Positions 22,272 through 34,481 of a stretch of DNA of 64,000 nt are shown in pieces. The notes beneath the pieces were generated by a model. The model was not told the DNA's origin. It did not search any database and saw only the letters and a list, made by a program, of their open reading frames with translations. Every line of letters begins with the position of its first letter. The first letter of the stretch is position 1. A program made the position numbers and the translations under genes. Source of the stretch: Candidatus Omnitrophota bacterium. GTDB lineage: Bacteria > Omnitrophota > Omnitrophia > Omnitrophales > JACROU01. The stretch covers positions 320,926-384,925 of the forward strand of contig JAJDCD010000025.1 of assembly GCA_029261035.1 (NCBI GenBank), in the 5' to 3' direction.

Positions 22272-24383
22272 TTATGACTGAAACAACATTTGTGAGTATG
22301 TTGGTACTGGCCACAAACGTGCTGGAGCGATGTCTTCAATCGCATCGATATCCGCTCGAAGAGATTCTGCTGTTGTTTTAACTTTGTCTCTGTAAATTTT
22401 CGCTTGAGACTCTAAGTCCGTAGCTTTTTGAGCTTTTTTTGTAGCAGACTCAAGTTCTGCAAGTTTTACTGTAGCAGACTCTAACAAGTCAGACACTCTT
22501 TTCAGAAGATCTTTTTGAACGCTTGCTTTTCCAGAAGCTGCTTTAAGCTTAGCAATCGTATCTGCCAACTCAGATGTAATACGAATTGCCGCTGGGATAT
22601 ATTGTCTTTTAACCATTGTAATTGCTGCTTGAGCTTCGATGTTAATTGTTTTGCAATAATGCTCTAAATAGATTTCGTATCTTGAACCCAATTCTTCTCT
22701 AGATAGAACTTTATATTTACCAAACAACTTAATCGCTTCTGGCGTATTCATATAAGGTAAAGCAAGAGGTGTATTTTTTATATTAGCAAGACCCCGCTTC
22801 TTCGCTTCTTTTACCCATTCATCCGAATAGTTATTACCATTAAAAATAACTCGGCCATGCTTCTTATACGCCTCTTTAATGATCGATGCTGCTTCTTTAT
22901 TAATATCTTTCTTGCTTACCTTTTCAAGACGAGTAGCAATCTCATCAAACGCTTCAGCCGCAATCGTATTTAATACAACATTTGCACCTGAAATAGAAGC
23001 AGAAGATGGCATCATACGAAACTCAAACTTGTTCCCTGTAAATGCAAAAGGAGAAGTTCTGTTTCGGTCCGTGTTGTCTTTAGGTAATTTAGGAAGAGAA
23101 TCAGCCCCAATACTCAAGAAAGATTGTCCTTGAGATGTGTACTTTTTACCTTTAGATATACAGTCCAAAATCTCTGTTAATTGAGTTCCCATAAAGATAG
23201 AAATAATGGCAGGAGGCGCTTCATTCGCACCCAAACGCAAATCATTTCCTGGATTAGCAGCAGAAGCACGAAGCTTATCGGCATGTCTATCAATTGCTGT
23301 AATCACAGCACTTAAGAAAACAAGGAACTGTTCGTTATCATGCGGAGTATTACCTGGTTCTAGCAAATTCTGACCATCATTGGTAGCTAAAGACCAGTTG
23401 TTATGTTTACCAGATCCATTGACACCATCAAATGGTTTTTCATGTAGCAAACAAACCAAACCATGTCTTAACGCCATTTTTTGCATTGTTTCCATAACCA
23501 ACTGATTGTGATCAGAAGCAATGTTCGTTGTAGAAAAAACAGAAGCCATTTCGAATTGCGCTGGAGCTACTTCGTTATGCTTTGTTTTTGCAGCAACGCC
23601 CATTCTCCAAAGTTCCACATCAAGATCTTGCATAAACGCAGAAACACGATCACGAATAGCACCAAAATATTGGTCTTCCATCTCTTGCCCTTTTGGAGCA
23701 TTTGCCCCAAAAAGAGTTCTTCCAGAAGTAATTAAATCTAAACGTTGATCATAATATTTCTTATCGATAAGAAAATATTCTTGCTCTGGTCCAACGGTTG
23801 AAAATACACGTTCGGAAGTCGTGTTTCCTAAAGCTCTCAAAACACGAAGCGCTTGTTTAGAAACAGCTTCCATGGATCTCAATACAGGTGTTTTTTTATC
23901 CAAAGCTTCTCCTGTATAAGAACAAAAAGCCGTAGGAATACAAAGTGTTACATTACCAACACCATCTTTCTTCAAGAAAGCTGGTGAAGTACAATCCCAT
24001 GCAGTATAACCACGCGCTTCAAAGGTTGTTCTCAAACCACCGCTAGGAAATGAAGATGCATCTGGCTCCCCTTGTACTAACTGAGCTCCAGAAAATTCCA
24101 TAATAATACTTCCATTACCATTTGGAGAAATAAAGGAGTCGTGCTTTTCAGCAGTAGCACCTGTTAAGGGTTGAAACCAATGACTGTAGTGAGTAGCTCC
24201 TTTTTCAAGAGCCCAATCTTTCATCGCGCTGGCAATTACATCTGCAACTTGAGGAGGCAAAGTAGCTCCCGTATCAATGGTTTTCTTGATTGATTTATAA
24301 GTTTCTTTAGGTAATCTTTGTTGCATTAACTTTAAATTAAATACATTTGATCCATATAACTTAGCTACGTCTTTATCTGACAT
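22272..24383 (-). CDS. glnN: Type III glutamine synthetase
   Basis: A 703-residue enzyme, the length of GSIII (about 700-730), not the 450-470 of GSI. The N-terminal family segment includes [19 protein letters not shown]. Catalytic motifs present are [10 protein letters not shown], the ammonium and glutamate site [29 protein letters not shown], and [18 protein letters not shown]. It condenses glutamate and ammonia with ATP in the cytosol as a dodecamer. GSIII occurs in Bacteroidota, cyanobacteria and PVC relatives. The gene has its own terminator and a promoter at 24525-24553. The nearby PII protein may regulate nitrogen flow through it. Confidence 0.95.
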
Positions 24384-24697: not shown

Positions 24698-26041
24698 ATG
24701 CATAAATTATTTCTAAACACTCTCAACTTTGTTCTCGTTTTTAGCATCATCTTCAGTGGCTCTCCTTCTCTTTTTGCAGAAGCAACCACTCCGAATGTCC
24801 GCGGCATTGAACAAGAAGAAACCAAAACTTTAGACACCACATTAGCTGCTCTTTCTGCAGGACTTTACCTTCCTAGAAAACTCGTGGACGGTACTTTTTT
24901 TGGTGCAGCAAAAACAGCTAAAGTTGTAAGCGATCCTGACTTCATTCGTAAAGTTGAAGACATCCTTTATATATACAAAAGAGACCTTGCTTGGTTTCCA
25001 ACATTTTCTTGGCAATCCGGTTATCGCCCTAATTATGGTGCAGGTATTTACTATAGTAAAAATGGTGTCAAATCACTGACACGCTTTTCTTTAAACGATT
25101 CTGATTATTATTCTTTCAGCACAAAAGCCTCATACACTCAATATTTTGGTCGAGTTAAATGGAAAACATCTGTAGCGGGTTTATATGAAAAGCGGGATGA
25201 CCGGAGATTCTACGGCATCGGATCTTCCCCAATGGCTGATACAAGAAACGTCTTTTTATCCCCCGAAGATTTTGGTGTCTTCACCGAAGAACGTAGAAAA
25301 TTAGAATGGAGTTCTTCTATCTATCCTGCAGAAAAATGGGGCTTCACTTATTTGGGCTATTACCAACGAAGAGGTCTTTTAGCTTCAGGCAAAGGCGACA
25401 ACGATCTTCGAGATCGTTTTAGAGTGTCTGCCATTCAAGGTTTTAATAATGCTCCTATCACACAAATATATAACGAACTCTCTTTTAAAGTTGATACTCG
25501 TGATAATGATAAAATGATTTCTAGAGGATTTAGAAGTGAAGTTTATTCAGGCATTTCTGTTGGGCTTGAAAATAATGACTCTGACTTTGTTCGTTTCGGT
25601 GCTGATGTTGCTGCCTTTATTCCAGTTATAAAAGAAAATCGTGTTCTTGTTCCTCGGATTGTATTTAATGGTGTTAACGAGTTTGATGACAGGAACCCAA
25701 TTCCTTTTACAGAATTTCCAAGAAACAGAACCTTTAGAGGCGTTTCTGATAAAGATTTAATTCGTAGTGATAAATTAGCTTTTGTTCCTTCTCTAGAATA
25801 TCAATGGCCTTTATCTCATGTACTTTCAGGTCATATATTTATAGACACGCTTATCGTTGGGCCTACTATTAGTGATTTAGGTTGGGATGATGGGCTCTGG
25901 GCCGCTGGTGTTGGCGTTGATTTTCATTATAGGGAAAGAGAATTCGGACGAGCTCAATTTGCTGTAGGCTCCGAAGGATTTCAATTTACATTTACTATTG
26001 GAACCCCTCTTCGATCTAACAGTCGATCAGATTGGAAATAA
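24698..26041 (+). CDS. Omp85-type outer-membrane beta-barrel without POTRA domains
   Basis: A 447-residue protein with a signal peptide (about 1-27, ending SLFA). A linker of about 60 residues follows, then a barrel resembling the BamA/TamA C-terminal domain (bacterial surface antigen). Typical features are alternating strands, NELSFKVDTRDNDKMISRGF, the tongue-like segment FTEFPRNRTFRGVSDKDLI with the RGF/RGV hairpin, and a terminal GSEGFQFTFTIGTPL strand. The sequence is too short for POTRA domains, so it is neither BamA nor a TpsB transporter. It overlaps or abuts the following lipoprotein gene; the pair is probably one operon. Confidence 0.78.
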   Translation: MHKLFLNTLNFVLVFSIIFSGSPSLFAEATTPNVRGIEQEETKTLDTTLAALSAGLYLPRKLVDGTFFGAAKTAKVVSDPDFIRKVEDILYIYKRDLAWFPTFSWQSGYRPNYGAGIYYSKNGVKSLTRFSLNDSDYYSFSTKASYTQYFGRVKWKTSVAGLYEKRDDRRFYGIGSSPMADTRNVFLSPEDFGVFTEERRKLEWSSSIYPAEKWGFTYLGYYQRRGLLASGKGDNDLRDRFRVSAIQGFNNAPITQIYNELSFKVDTRDNDKMISRGFRSEVYSGISVGLENNDSDFVRFGADVAAFIPVIKENRVLVPRIVFNGVNEFDDRNPIPFTEFPRNRTFRGVSDKDLIRSDKLAFVPSLEYQWPLSHVLSGHIFIDTLIVGPTISDLGWDDGLWAAGVGVDFHYREREFGRAQFAVGSEGFQFTFTIGTPLRSNSRSDWK

Positions 26042-26043
26042 AG

Positions 26044-27618
26044 ATGAATAAAATAAACTCCACCCTTGTTGTCTTATGCTTAGTCTTTCTAGTTTCTGGC
26101 TGTGCAAATAAACACTATGTTTTCAGTGATACAAGTCCCGTCAAAACCTTAAACGACATGCAAGCTTCCCCATTACCTACAACAAATGATTTTGACTTCG
26201 CAGAAAATGCAGTAACTTCTGCCGGAAGATATCCTATCTCAGGTCATTTAGATCTAAGAAGAGCTAGTCGCAGTGCTGATGTAAACTCAATGGATCAAGT
26301 TCCAAATTCAACCTGGTACAACGCGAGATTGGGTTACACAGATATCAGCCCTAACGATTTGCTTCAAGGACCTATTTCTATTGGGGCTCCTCAAAAACCT
26401 ATTACTGTAATTAAAACTAAAAAAATTGGTGATAGCAAAGGATTTATTGTTAAGGACAGTAAAGGAAATAAATATTTAATCAAATTTGATCCTGCAGAGT
26501 ATCCATTACTTCAAACAACAAACAACTTAGTTGTGAATCGCCTTTTTTGGGGTTTCGGTTTTAATGTCCCTGAAGATTTTATTTTTTATTTCAAACGCAA
26601 TGATTTAAATGTAGATTCCAATATCAATGAGTCTGATGTGGACTCACTGCTTTTCGAAGTAGGTGCGGATAAAACAGGCCAGTATAGAACTACTGCAAGT
26701 TTATTGATTGAAGGCACTGTCCTAGGAGGAACACATCAAAAAGGAGTTCGTAAAGGGGATCTGAACGATAGAGTACCTCATGAGAACCTCCGTTCCCTAA
26801 GATCTCTTCGTGTCTTCTGTGCTTGGCTTGACCATACCGGAATGAGAACCGATAACTCTTTAGATGTTTATACCGGAACTGCGGGTAATGGTTACACAAA
26901 ACACTACCTTCTTGATTTTGGTGAAACTCTAGGAGCACATGGGGTAGAAAAAGGCCGCCCTTGGGATGGTCATGAACACTACTTCTCTTTAAAAGACTCT
27001 ATAATAAAATTTGCAGAACTAGGTCTATTTGTCCAACCTTGGGAAAACAGGGATCCAAAATCGAGCACACCTAAAGATTACTATCAAGTAGAAAATTTTA
27101 GTTTTGAAAAATGGAAAGAGTCACTACCTTTTCAACCCATACAAAAAAGCCAACCCGACGACGACTACTGGGCTGTAAAAATTTTAGCATCTGTTACACG
27201 GGAACATCTCGAAACATTATTTAATGCAACGAACAATCCTCAAAAAGAATACCTAAACTATTTAATCGAAACCTTAGTTTCTCGCAAACAAATCATATTA
27301 AACGAAGTTCTTTCTTCCGTATCTCCTGTTGAAAGTACAGGTATTACTAACGGAGAACTTCAAATCACAAATATGGGTCAGAAAATTTTAGGTGGATTAG
27401 ATAATATTAGTTACAAAATAAATTTCTATAATGAGAAGAATAAAAAAATATCGGAAACCCTTTTACTTGAAAACCAATCTACAAATTTCAGTATTCCTAT
27501 AAACACCTCAAGCAATTACCTACGTGTTGATGTCCGAGTTTGGAAGAATGGAAAGAAAGCGCCTCGATCTGCAGAATTTCATATCCGCAACAATAAACTC
27601 GTTGGCGTTGTTCATTAA
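26044..27618 (+). CDS. Lipoprotein with atypical kinase-like fold (HipA/FAM20-like motifs)
   Basis: A 524-residue lipoprotein (lipobox LVSGC, Cys20). Motifs resembling an atypical kinase appear in the right order. These are YLIKFDP with Lys147 as candidate ATP ligand, then NRLFWGFGFNVPEDFIFYF (as in HipA-like N-lobes), WLDHTGMRTDN (residues 261-271, candidate catalytic Asp263 and Asn271), and LLDFGETLG (289-297) as a DFG-like metal motif. The C-terminal 100 residues look like a beta-sandwich. I do not recognise a named family. Cotranscription with an Omp85-type barrel suggests a complex at the outer membrane. ATG 26044 follows the barrel stop closely; kinase activity is inferred only. Confidence 0.5.
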   Translation: MNKINSTLVVLCLVFLVSGCANKHYVFSDTSPVKTLNDMQASPLPTTNDFDFAENAVTSAGRYPISGHLDLRRASRSADVNSMDQVPNSTWYNARLGYTDISPNDLLQGPISIGAPQKPITVIKTKKIGDSKGFIVKDSKGNKYLIKFDPAEYPLLQTTNNLVVNRLFWGFGFNVPEDFIFYFKRNDLNVDSNINESDVDSLLFEVGADKTGQYRTTASLLIEGTVLGGTHQKGVRKGDLNDRVPHENLRSLRSLRVFCAWLDHTGMRTDNSLDVYTGTAGNGYTKHYLLDFGETLGAHGVEKGRPWDGHEHYFSLKDSIIKFAELGLFVQPWENRDPKSSTPKDYYQVENFSFEKWKESLPFQPIQKSQPDDDYWAVKILASVTREHLETLFNATNNPQKEYLNYLIETLVSRKQIILNEVLSSVSPVESTGITNGELQITNMGQKILGGLDNISYKINFYNEKNKKISETLLLENQSTNFSIPINTSSNYLRVDVRVWKNGKKAPRSAEFHIRNNKLVGVVH

Positions 27619-27739: not shown

Positions 27740-28516
27740 TTAAACTTCTGAAATAAGATATCGTTTCAACTCTTTAGTTTTAGGACAAGAAACAAGATCC
27801 TCCACACTTCCCTGTTCTATTAAACGCCCTACACCCTCTTTAGAAGATAAGAATACAATTCGATCACTCACCCTTCTTCCTTGAGCTAGTTGATGTGTTA
27901 CAAGAATAATCGATTTAGTTTGCTTCATTTCTAAAAGAGCTTCTTCTATTTCATGCGTGGAATGAGGATCTAAGCTCGAAGTAGGCTCATCTAATAATAA
28001 AATTTCTGGATCTGCTGCTAAAACTCGAGCAAAGCACAGCCTTTGTTTTTGTCCCAAAGATAGGATAGATGCAGATTTATTCAACCTATCTTTAACTTCA
28101 TCCCACAAATGCGCTTTCTTCAAAACCTCTTCTGCTAATCCATCAGCTTCTTTTCTATCTAACTTTAAATGATGCCTTACCCCAAACAACACATTTCGCA
28201 TAATAGAACCTGGAAAAATACAAGGCTTCTGAAAAACGAGTCCAATTTTTTTTCTTAAGAAATAAATAGAATAATTTTCAAAAATACTTTTACCACAACA
28301 AGTAACATCTCCTGTCACATTCAATTTGGACTCCAAATCTGCTAAACGGTTCAAAACACGAAGCAAAGTTGACTTACCCGATCCAGACGGGCCCATCAAA
28401 GTTAAAATTTCATTAGAATATAGGTCAAAGGATACATCCTTTACTATAGGTTCATCCCCGGCTGAAACAGAAATATTTTTAACCGAAAGAACTTTACTAG
28501 AATGTAGATTTGTCAT
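27740..28516 (-). CDS. pstB: Phosphate ABC transporter ATP-binding protein
   Basis: A 258-residue ABC ATPase with Walker A GPSGSGKST, signature SLGQKQR, Walker B ILLLDEPTSSLD and switch His in LVTHQLAQG. It powers high-affinity phosphate uptake with PstS, PstC and PstA. The signature SLGQK replaces the usual LSGGQ. The ATG overlaps the pstA stop by 4 bases with GGAGG upstream. It is the last gene of the pst operon, and no phoU follows. Confidence 0.9.
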   Translation of the reverse strand: MTNLHSSKVLSVKNISVSAGDEPIVKDVSFDLYSNEILTLMGPSGSGKSTLLRVLNRLADLESKLNVTGDVTCCGKSIFENYSIYFLRKKIGLVFQKPCIFPGSIMRNVLFGVRHHLKLDRKEADGLAEEVLKKAHLWDEVKDRLNKSASILSLGQKQRLCFARVLAADPEILLLDEPTSSLDPHSTHEIEEALLEMKQTKSIILVTHQLAQGRRVSDRIVFLSSKEGVGRLIEQGSVEDLVSCPKTKELKRYLISEV

Positions 28517-29373
28517 ACTTTTGCCTCCTCATGCGCTCTAAGCCTAAACGGAAGAGCAATCCCACTAATTAAAATAACCAACATGATCAACACCAGAGAA
28601 CTTCCCCAAGCATTACTCAGAGCTTGTGGATGATAAGACTCCTGAACTAAATTAAAAATATGATAAGGCAAAGAAAGAATTGGACTTTCCTTTACTCCTG
28701 TAGGGATGGTCGCCCCAGAAAAAATGGTTGCTGTAAACATAATGGGAGCTGTTTCTCCCACAGCACGTGCCAAACCCAACAACACTCCTGATAAAAAACT
28801 GGAAAAACTCTGTGGCAAAATAATGGAAAATATAATCTGCGTCTTTCTCATCCCTAACGCCAAACCATTTTCGATATACTCTGAAGATATTCTGTTAATC
28901 CCTTCTGACAATGCAAGAGTTGTCGTTGGTAAAATCATCATTGCTAACAAGAATCCTCCAGTGAACCAAGACTTACCCCAACCTAAATATTTAACAAAAA
29001 AGAAGAATCCAAAAATCCCGAATAAAACAGAAGGAATTCCATTTAAAATATAAAGAAATAATTCCATGGTTTTTTTAACAAATGCTTTTTGAATATAGAT
29101 CGATTTAACAAGAGCAAAACCCATAGACAAAGGAAACACAATAAACAAAGTCGTTATTGCTAAAATTAAAGTCCCTAGGATTTGGTAAAAAATTCCACCA
29201 GAAATTCCACCCTCCCGCATAGGTGACAACAAAAATTCTAACGAAAGAGACTGAAAACCTTTTGATAGAAGTAATATAAATCCAAGAAAAAGTAAACTCA
29301 CCGTAATAAAACCAGATAAGTAGACTAATAAGATAAATAACTGATTCTTCCAAATTCGAATTGAACTAACCAT
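28513..29373 (-). CDS. pstA: Phosphate ABC transporter permease PstA
   Basis: A 286-residue integral membrane protein with six hydrophobic segments. The cytoplasmic EAA loop is SEGINRISSEYIENGLALGM..RKTQIIFSIILPQS in split form. PstA pairs with PstC to form the phosphate channel in the inner membrane. It overlaps pstB at its end and pstC at its start (8 bases). Confidence 0.88.
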   Translation of the reverse strand: MVSSIRIWKNQLFILLVYLSGFITVSLLFLGFILLLSKGFQSLSLEFLLSPMREGGISGGIFYQILGTLILAITTLFIVFPLSMGFALVKSIYIQKAFVKKTMELFLYILNGIPSVLFGIFGFFFFVKYLGWGKSWFTGGFLLAMMILPTTTLALSEGINRISSEYIENGLALGMRKTQIIFSIILPQSFSSFLSGVLLGLARAVGETAPIMFTATIFSGATIPTGVKESPILSLPYHIFNLVQESYHPQALSNAWGSSLVLIMLVILISGIALPFRLRAHEEAKV

Positions 29374-30310
29374 GTTGATATTTTCTCCCTAACCAATTCA
29401 CGGCTTCCCCCATAGCAACAATAACCCCAACAAAAACAAATAGAATTAAGCCTAGACCAATCATTGCAGACCAATGTGTCGGTTCTCCATAAGCAATATA
29501 AAGCTCCGACCCACCTAATTTACTCGTAATGGTTTGCCCTGCCTCAAATAAAGGCTTTAAAGAGAAAAGAGAATCAGACAATCGATTATCAGCCCTTCCA
29601 ATCACTAAATACACAGCTATCGTCTCCCCCAACGCACGCCCTAAACCCAGAAGAACCGCTGCAATAATACCGGGAATGGCTCTAGGCAATACTCCGTGAA
29701 CAAAGGTTTCCAAACGAGTTAAACCCAAAGATAAAGCCACTTCACGGTGCTCTTTGCTAACACCTCTAAGAGCATCTTCAGACAGACTCATGACTGTCGG
29801 CAAAATCATAACTGCCAAAATAACACTCGCAGTTAAAAGAGTGTCTCCACTTTCTGGAGAAAATGGAGCAAACCATTTAAAAATAAGTGGGCGCAAAAAA
29901 AGAACTCCCAACAAACCATATACAACCGAAGGAATACCCGCTAGAAGTTCGATAAAACTCTTAACATAGACCCGAATAGAATTGGGCAAAAACTCTGAAG
30001 TTAAAATTGCAGAACCTAAAGCAAAAGGTAAGCTCAACACAATAGCTAAGAATGAAACCAGTATCGTTCCATAAATCATGGAAGCAGCGCCGTATTGGTT
30101 TATGCGATAAAACCAATCTGCATCTGTAATAAAACTTAGTTGTTCTTGAAAAAAAATAGGGGATCCTTGAATCAGTAAAAAAAGGGCCATCCCACAAAAA
30201 AACAATAGACTCACTAATGTAAAAATTAACGAGAAAGCACCTGTAACACTAAATGGAAATGTGGGTTTGGATAAAATTGCTTTGGAGCTAACGAACACTA
30301 AGATACCCAT
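29366..30310 (-). CDS. pstC: Phosphate ABC transporter permease PstC
   Basis: A 314-residue membrane protein with six to seven hydrophobic segments. The EAA-loop is SEDALRGVSKEHREVALSLG, followed by RALGETIAVYLVIG, a PstC hallmark. Its first codons overlap the end of pstS by 23 bases; a GTG four codons further in is an alternative start because no strong ribosome site precedes the ATG. It forms the channel with PstA. Confidence 0.88.
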   Translation of the reverse strand: MGILVFVSSKAILSKPTFPFSVTGAFSLIFTLVSLLFFCGMALFLLIQGSPIFFQEQLSFITDADWFYRINQYGAASMIYGTILVSFLAIVLSLPFALGSAILTSEFLPNSIRVYVKSFIELLAGIPSVVYGLLGVLFLRPLIFKWFAPFSPESGDTLLTASVILAVMILPTVMSLSEDALRGVSKEHREVALSLGLTRLETFVHGVLPRAIPGIIAAVLLGLGRALGETIAVYLVIGRADNRLSDSLFSLKPLFEAGQTITSKLGGSELYIAYGEPTHWSAMIGLGLILFVFVGVIVAMGEAVNWLGRKYQHG

Positions 30311-31133
30311 ATTTCTTTACAAGCTCTTGCCCACGATCTGATAAAATAAAGTCGATAAATTCCTTTTGATAGCCTGTGGGTTTACCATTCGTAACTAAAA
30401 ATAAAGAACGAGACAAAGGGTACTCTCCGCTCATAATGGTTTCCTTCGTAGGCATAACACTCTCGCCTGTAGGAAGCTGAATGCCAATAGCTTTTATTCT
30501 TTCAGAATTTTCTGCCCAAGCATAAGACAGTTGGGTAATAGCACTATTATGAAATGCCACTTTATTTTTGGCTTCTTCATTAGCTCCAACTTCAGGGTGG
30601 GCAACTAATGGAGAATTTTTGTAGCTCCCATACGCCCAATTCGAGAAAACTTCCCACGTCCCTCTCCCAGGCTCTTTATTGTAAAAAACAACCTTGGAAT
30701 CTTGTCCTCCCAATTCTTTCCAATTAAGGATTTTTCTCTCATACAATTGTTGAATCTGTTTTTTTGACAAAAACTGGATACCCGAATCCCATACGGGTTG
30801 AGAGACAACTAAAGCAAGACCATCAATCCCTATCTTAAAAGATTCGAAATTAGCTGAAGCATATTTATTGCGATCGGCCTCGGAAATAGGTTTAGAAATC
30901 ATACCTATATCAACAAAACCTTCTCCTACAGCTGAAATCCCTCCAGAAGACCCCCCTTGGGTATCTACATAAATAGTCCATCCACGCTCTGCCCTTAAAA
31001 TCTCAGCCGCTTCCGAAATAACAGGGTTCACCGTGGTAGAACCTTGTATTTTAATTTTAACCTCACCTTCTTTAGCATTCAGAATCGAGGGTAATAGCAA
31101 AATAGCTAAAACAATCCAACCTATTTTCTTCAT
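30288..31133 (-). CDS. pstS: Phosphate-binding periplasmic protein
   Basis: A 281-residue periplasmic binding protein. The signal peptide ends near ILNA (about residue 20). It has IQGSTTVNPVISEAAEIL, DTQGGSSGGISAVGEGFVDIG with the phosphate-binding Ser/Thr/Gly residues, SKPISEADRNKY and a late GREP-like EPGRGTWEVF. It captures phosphate for PstCAB. The ATG at 31133 has GGAGGA upstream and lies within a longer frame starting at 31151. It follows arsR after a 56-base gap with no terminator seen, so they are probably one transcript. Confidence 0.9.
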   Translation of the reverse strand: MKKIGWIVLAILLLPSILNAKEGEVKIKIQGSTTVNPVISEAAEILRAERGWTIYVDTQGGSSGGISAVGEGFVDIGMISKPISEADRNKYASANFESFKIGIDGLALVVSQPVWDSGIQFLSKKQIQQLYERKILNWKELGGQDSKVVFYNKEPGRGTWEVFSNWAYGSYKNSPLVAHPEVGANEEAKNKVAFHNSAITQLSYAWAENSERIKAIGIQLPTGESVMPTKETIMSGEYPLSRSLFLVTNGKPTGYQKEFIDFILSDRGQELVKKYGYLSVR

Positions 31134-31189
31134 ATCTCCTCCAAGAATCAAAGAATCAAAATTCTTTGATGGATTTTAAACAAAAAAAA

Positions 31190-34404: not shown

Positions 34405-34481
34405 GGGTCCGTAGCTCAGCTGGTTAGAGCAGTCGACTCATAATCGATTGGTCGCAGGTTCAAGTCCTGCCGGACCCACCA
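34405..34481 (+). tRNA. tRNA with anticodon CAU, probably tRNA-Ile2
   Basis: A 77-base gene with encoded CCA. The acceptor stem is GGGTCCG (34405-34411) with CGGACCC (34471-34477), discriminator A, then CCA. The D arm contains GCTC..GAGC. The anticodon stem GTCGA/TCGAT holds the loop CTCATAA, so the anticodon is CAT. The T arm GCAGGTTCAAGTCCTGC is intact. The anticodon arm plus variable region (TTGGTCG) match bacterial tRNA-Ile2, whose C34 is modified to lysidine, better than elongator tRNA-Met. Confidence 0.9.

Follow-up and report, generated by a model that had tools for sequence, protein, structure and literature searches.

The 64,000-nt stretch of DNA analysed here, called the window below, carries on its forward strand a pair of genes encoding a β-barrel of the Omp85 superfamily and a secreted lipoprotein with kinase-like motifs (table 1). 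Both genes, spanning 24698–27618, lie where a sequence-only reading had described them, and the lipoprotein gene starts at an ATG two bases past the stop codon of the barrel gene. On one side, separated from the pair by a gap of 314 bases and divergent from it, is a gene whose 703-aa product reads as a type III glutamine synthetase. On the other side, a four-gene operon, phosphate-transport-like (pst) by sequence reading, is convergent with the pair. A function common to the pair and the pst operon was considered and rejected: the pst genes are encoded by the other strand, and the reading frames listed around an Electryonea relative (L003) include no pst-like gene. A tRNA gene is the sole Rfam match in the window at the gathering threshold.

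Table 1. Coordinates of the features discussed (window positions, unless another locus is given)
Feature	Sequence	Position	Strand	Basis or remark
Glutamine synthetase type III-like gene	window	22272-24383	-	by reading
POTRA-less Omp85-superfamily β-barrel, partner gene	window	24698..26041	+	447 aa; Pfam Omp85
Secreted kinase-like lipoprotein, probably pseudokinase	window	26044..27618	+	524 aa; kinase-like motifs
Signal peptide of lipoprotein	window	26044..26103	+	lipobox LVSGC (translation, lipobox scan)
Lipidated Cys20 of lipoprotein	window	26101-26103	+	codon in lipobox; residue +2 is Ala
Lys147 codon, β3 (ATP-anchoring) lysine position	window	26482..26484	+	alignment A7; at least 90% conserved
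Asn161 codon, αC glutamate position	window	26524..26526	+	alignment
Gly266 codon, catalytic aspartate position	window	26839..26841	+	Asp in nearly all relatives
Asn271 codon, catalytic-loop asparagine	window	26854..26856	+	alignment
Asp291 codon, DFG aspartate	window	26914..26916	+	alignment
Four-gene pst-like operon	window	27740-31151	-	by reading
tRNA gene	window	34405-34478	+	Rfam
Metallophosphatase gene (PF00149)	L092	8678-9991		Electryonea phylum
Metallophosphatase gene (PF00149)	L093	8785-10089		Electryonea phylum
Metallophosphatase gene (PF00149)	L096	8985-10322		Electryonea phylum
Gene after NTT-HEAT gene, cyclic-nucleotide-binding	L094	13340-13768		Pfam
Gene after NTT-HEAT gene, cyclic-nucleotide-binding	L093	14309-14791		by reading

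The window barrel scores 25.8 bits against the Pfam Omp85 family, above the cut-off of 24, and 30 of the 31 related barrels match this family. In the PDB, the barrel profile matches the barrels of BamA and TamA (e.g., 4k3c, 2.9e-8, and 4n74, 5.7e-6). As had been proposed from the sequence, the barrel is devoid of POTRA domains: Pfam scans of 31 barrels, the one in the window and 30 related ones, gave no match to a POTRA family. The AlphaFold model computed from the single sequence is unusable (pLDDT 29.5). Two-partner secretion was considered for the barrel and the lipoprotein and is not preferred, since the barrel has no POTRA domain and f43, a taxonomic family of another class, retains the kinase-like protein and a translocase without a barrel.

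The lipoprotein relatives share, in this order, K147, E161, the loop D266-x-[RK]-x-x-N271, and D291-F. In the window copy, K147 belongs to IKFDP, N271 ends DHTGMRTDN, and D291 lies in LDFG. In alignments of 32 and 53 members, conservation reaches 90% or more in each of the columns of K147, N271, D291, and residue 266; the five motif positions were selected after viewing the alignment. Because this conservation extends over 53 relatives, the motifs are not a product of chance, and the ordered set described from the sequence, whose value had been made dependent on its conservation in homologues, is real and correctly placed; its loop, however, is without the catalytic aspartate here. Measured against protein kinases, the window copy has the β3 lysine, the DFG aspartate, and N271, but neither the αC glutamate (E161N) nor the loop aspartate (D266G). 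Outside the clade of window-type copies, almost every relative has E or D at position 161. Most members from the class to which the window belongs have the loop D-x-R-x-x-N; in most Electryonea-phylum copies and in f43, whose copies also carry DFG, it is D-x-K-x-x-N.

Searches of Pfam and NCBIfam with the lipoprotein gave no match of note, no kinase of Pfam or the PDB was matched at the curated cut-off, and PDB searches with the lipoprotein family returned chance matches only. Its AlphaFold model, based on a two-sequence alignment, is unusable (pLDDT 37.5). Below the threshold, HipA_2 (PF20613) is matched by 18 of the 53 members, with a best E of 0.00058; the HipA rows seen score 13–15 bits, under the cut-offs of 27 and 30.5. 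Where rows were seen, the sub-threshold matches to HipA_2 and HipA_C (PF07804) fall on the N-lobe region. When compared by hhalign with 40 HipA sequences, the family profile gave an 82-column local alignment (score 31.0, P 0.0036), in which lysine falls on lysine and glutamate on glutamate. Among 300 column-shuffled controls, three runs were set aside as end artefacts of 8–10 columns, and none of the other 297 reached 31.0. This comparison is support for a kinase fold, not proof of it; with the sub-threshold matches it points to HipA-like kinases, a relatedness that is weak at the sequence level. Neither CotH nor FAM20 was matched in Pfam scans of the 53 members with E values up to 1, and the HipA_2 search of the phylum of the window found too few sequences for a profile. 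The search against HipA and FAM20 suggested in the sequence-only reading thus yields a weak likeness to HipA, everywhere below the curated cut-off, and none to FAM20.

A second copy of the pair is present in the same genome on contig C24 (lipoprotein match E 1e-46), with K-E-D-R-N-D intact, and a relative with 41% identity and the same gene order was found in Candidatus Electryonea clarkiae. With a three-sequence profile, the kinase-like gene was identified in 46 of 97 genomes, all inside the class of the window; a larger profile detected it in the Electryonea phylum as well, in 10 of 39 genomes. It occurs in 59 of 384 genomes drawn from the phylum of the window. In another class of this phylum, genomes of the family f43 encode a shorter form of the kinase-like lipoprotein, and no barrel was found with it. 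Elsewhere, the barrel gene lies directly upstream of the kinase-like gene in nearly all loci with enough flanking sequence. No relatives of the kinase-like lipoprotein were found on viral contigs or on plasmids. The survey covered about 420 genomes of two phyla, and the barrel–kinase pair is conserved in both; the proposal of a new envelope system survives. In the taxonomic order to which the window belongs (L083–L090 and other loci), the module often follows a conserved housekeeping run reading as trmD, rplS, rnhB, and yraN.

Beside the C24 copy, on the same strand, lies a gene for a 911-aa protein of the ATP/ADP translocase family (PF03219, 1.1e-19), which also matches the solved ADP,ATP carrier 9j3n (1.8e-13). 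It is the only PF03219 gene of the genome and is on a contig other than that of the window. The translocases neighbouring kinase-like genes score 71–86 bits against PF03219 (cut-off 21; E 1.1e-19 to 2.7e-24), and at other loci the PF03219 domain is followed by C-terminal HEAT repeats (TLC/NTT-HEAT). The adjacent translocase gene is on the same strand as the kinase-like gene, 0–5.5 kb away, in either order; in f43 it comes first, and HEAT repeats were detected in one of the two proteins scanned. The NTT-like motifs EAKR and [ST]KE..Y[LIV]P are found in most, but not all, translocase copies. In most cases, over the approximately 420 genomes, the translocase and kinase-like genes are neighbours. 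Of the 48 genomes with PF03219 in the draw from the phylum of the window, 43 contain the kinase-like gene, compared with 59 among all 384 genomes drawn (Fisher p 8e-38, a value inflated by shared ancestry). Among the five other PF03219 genomes, two have a contig end near the gene, two encode a single-domain NTT, and one is a true exception, an f43 genome (G195) whose NTT-HEAT gene (L142) has no adjoining kinase-like gene. Both single-domain NTTs (L146 of G061 and L147 of G346) are about 480–490 aa long and come from genomes of other families; no kinase-like neighbour was seen in the stretch read. In the Electryonea phylum, all eight PF03219 genomes are among the ten kinase-positive ones.

At three Electryonea-phylum loci, a metallophosphatase gene (PF00149) is intercalated between the kinase-like and translocase genes, and a cyclic-nucleotide-binding gene can follow the NTT-HEAT gene (table 1). 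The gene next after it, in the context of L094 and L093, is response-regulator-like. On plasmids, we found distant TLC/MFS-like proteins; different genes surround those of Pantoea and Azotobacter, and for Cupriavidus this region of the record is unannotated. As the Pantoea relative sits amid oxidoreductase genes, the substrate of the superfamily is not fixed.

The state of the five residues usually follows the presence of the translocase. Next to a translocase gene, 46 copies are intact and one is broken, whereas in the absence of the translocase, defined as at least 5 kb of both flanks without one, two are intact and 14 are broken (Fisher p 4.6e-11); eight further copies had flanks too short to be scored. 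The exceptions are the copies of G030 and G003, which are intact with no translocase next to them, and that of G296, carrying N271Q beside one. This p value overstates the independence of the copies: on the tree, which contains six changes of translocase state, the independent-pairs test, with 2.6 pairs of four in the same direction and none in the opposite one, is not significant (p 0.25). According to parsimony, 13 of the 15 changes at K147, D266, N271, and D291 took place in translocase-less lineages, which represent 25% of the tree length (p 1e-6). In 23 control columns, the proportion is also raised, at 18 of 36 changes, and the catalytic excess over these controls has a p of 0.026. These values come from a single tree built by a quick method, in which two contig-edge copies were assigned from their sister rows, and the association of motif loss with translocase loss was tested on the very data in which it had been spotted. 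Between pairs of copies with lost catalytic residues, dN/dS is 0.06–0.13, and two translocase-positive pairs are saturated and give no comparison. Such values denote purifying selection, so these copies are retained for some function.

The window copy belongs to this category. With the catalytic aspartate (D266G) and the αC glutamate (E161N) lost, it is probably a pseudokinase, one of the options initially raised for it. No translocase was found within approximately 10 kb on its upstream side and 8 kb on its downstream side. In the tree, it falls into one group (support 100) with those of G032, Electryonea, and G110, apart from the other copy of its own genome, and this window-type group is placed next to the Electryonea-phylum copies (support 98); the two Electryonea-phylum copies of the window type keep D266. 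Given this separate grouping and the lack of a translocase nearby, the window copy is best read as a pseudokinase paralogue. We therefore consider the pair, as judged from its sequence, to be a divergent paralogue of a conserved envelope module, one in which catalysis is probably disabled. The loss of both residues, together with the absence of a translocase neighbour, makes an ATP-independent binding or regulatory pair of lipoprotein and barrel its most likely role.

Taking together the observed gene pairing, translocase adjacency, conservation and loss of the motifs, and purifying selection on copies lacking catalytic residues, we estimate at a little under 60% the probability that these genes form a conserved module of the envelope, whose translocase feeds ATP to a secreted HipA-like kinase, usually accompanied by an Omp85 barrel, and that the pair of the window is an ATP-independent paralogue. 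The full module would comprise an inner-membrane TLC/NTT-HEAT translocase, an outer-membrane Omp85 barrel devoid of POTRA domains, and a putative HipA-like kinase whose export relies on a Sec or lipoprotein signal. The translocase would exchange cytoplasmic ATP for periplasmic ADP, a direction that we infer, and the kinase would spend this ATP on the modification of an envelope substrate. The barrel might hold the kinase at the outer membrane, carry it across, or be its substrate, and the secreted metallophosphatase encoded by some Electryonea-phylum operons could reverse the reaction. ATP, as pointed out at the outset, is not expected at the outer membrane; the likely answer is the translocase, found beside intact copies and missing at most degenerate ones. 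The intact C24 pair beside the only ATP-transporter gene of its genome suggests bacteria in which ATP leaves the cytoplasm to power an envelope kinase. In a broader form, to which we give slightly less than an even chance, some uncultured bacteria would export ATP through NTT-HEAT translocases to power a periplasmic or outer-membrane kinase, pseudokinases would arise upon translocase loss, and the translocases of Omnitrophota would be the ATP supply.

The opposite direction of transport, in which an energy parasite uses its translocase to import the ATP of a host or prey, with the kinase-like protein and barrel as parts for uptake or surface binding, seems unlikely to us. It has precedents: the characterized NTTs of intracellular bacteria import ATP (PMC5381601; PMC10066038), and ATP scavenging during symbiosis is proposed for a class distribution similar to ours (Seymour et al. 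2023, PMC10066038). Import nevertheless accounts neither for a translocase gene adjoining a gene for a secreted kinase-like protein nor for a decay of catalytic residues mainly where the translocase is absent. There is also a rather slim chance that the kinase-like fold does not serve a kinase and that the nucleotide is used for AMPylation or glutamylation or is only sensed. The motifs K, E, D, N, and D are also found in kinase-fold enzymes with other activities, and the position two residues past the loop aspartate is Arg or Lys in most relatives. For the intact copies, the complete K-E-D-N-D set speaks in favour of catalysis, and on sequence data kinase and non-kinase activities are not separated.

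That the lipoprotein is unrelated to kinases, with coincidental motifs, and forms with the Omp85 barrel a pair for outer-membrane assembly or surface export, is very unlikely. The absence of a significant profile match for the lipoprotein would fit, as would the frequent partnership of Omp85 proteins with lipoproteins and the position of the barrel gene, which immediately precedes the lipoprotein gene at almost all sufficiently flanked loci outside f43. Five ordered positions are nevertheless conserved over 53–71 members, the HipA_2 and HipA_C matches recur on one same region, and the kinase-like gene is linked to a nucleotide translocase; f43 has D-x-K-x-x-N and DFG, and no barrel. It is scarcely probable, finally, that the window copy is still an active kinase with a rearranged active site in which, for example, D263 or D270 replaces D266. 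The aspartate preceding N271 is common to the aligned window-type copies, and D266 is kept in those of the Electryonea phylum; against this, the window copy carries G266 and N161, no translocase gene lies within about 8 kb, and the only PF03219 gene of the genome is on another contig.

Bacterial envelopes are thought to run without ATP beyond the inner membrane, and a module of translocase, barrel, and kinase would show a way round this limit. If confirmed, it would be a bacterial counterpart of secretory-pathway phosphorylation, and translocases so far interpreted as marks of energy parasitism would supply ATP to an envelope system. Eukaryotic secretory-pathway kinases of the FAM20C type are fed by an ATP transporter. 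The module would resemble them in that a dedicated ATP transporter serves a kinase located outside the cytosol; it differs by the absence of sequence matches to FAM20 or CotH and by its location in a bacterial envelope instead of the Golgi. With HipA-like kinases (PF20613, PF07804), the family shares the order of the motifs and an alignable β3 lysine and αC glutamate region. However, it is exported and has D-x-[RK]-x-x-N in place of the D-x-H-x-x-N-type loops of the HipA sequences aligned, and it is not filed as HipA. The window barrel fits the "noNterm" class of POTRA-less Omp85 proteins (review PMC4104836), but is in fixed pairing with a kinase-like gene, and kinases are not mentioned in that review.

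The neighbouring translocases correspond to NTT-HEAT fusions, which Major et al. (2017, PMC5381601) present as widespread and uncharacterized. They share with them PF03219 with C-terminal HEAT repeats and, at some Electryonea-phylum loci, a following cyclic-nucleotide-binding gene. The word kinase is absent from that paper, whereas here the neighbour is a secreted kinase-like protein. In the open-access papers covered by our searches, neither a neighbouring secreted kinase nor a system of such make-up was found described, and the module would provide a first functional context for the NTT-HEAT family. In Omnitrophota, ATP/ADP translocases have been reported by Seymour et al. (2023, PMC10066038) only from Aquiviventia (11/31) and Omnitrophia (20/36), with one homologue in Gorgyraia, and were interpreted as symbiosis factors. 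From their distribution, these are probably the same genes. Here, nearly all translocases adjoin a gene for a secreted kinase-like protein, which suggests another role for them; the kinase module offers an alternative explanation to the scavenging of host ATP and would alter the ecological reading of these genes as a symbiosis factor.
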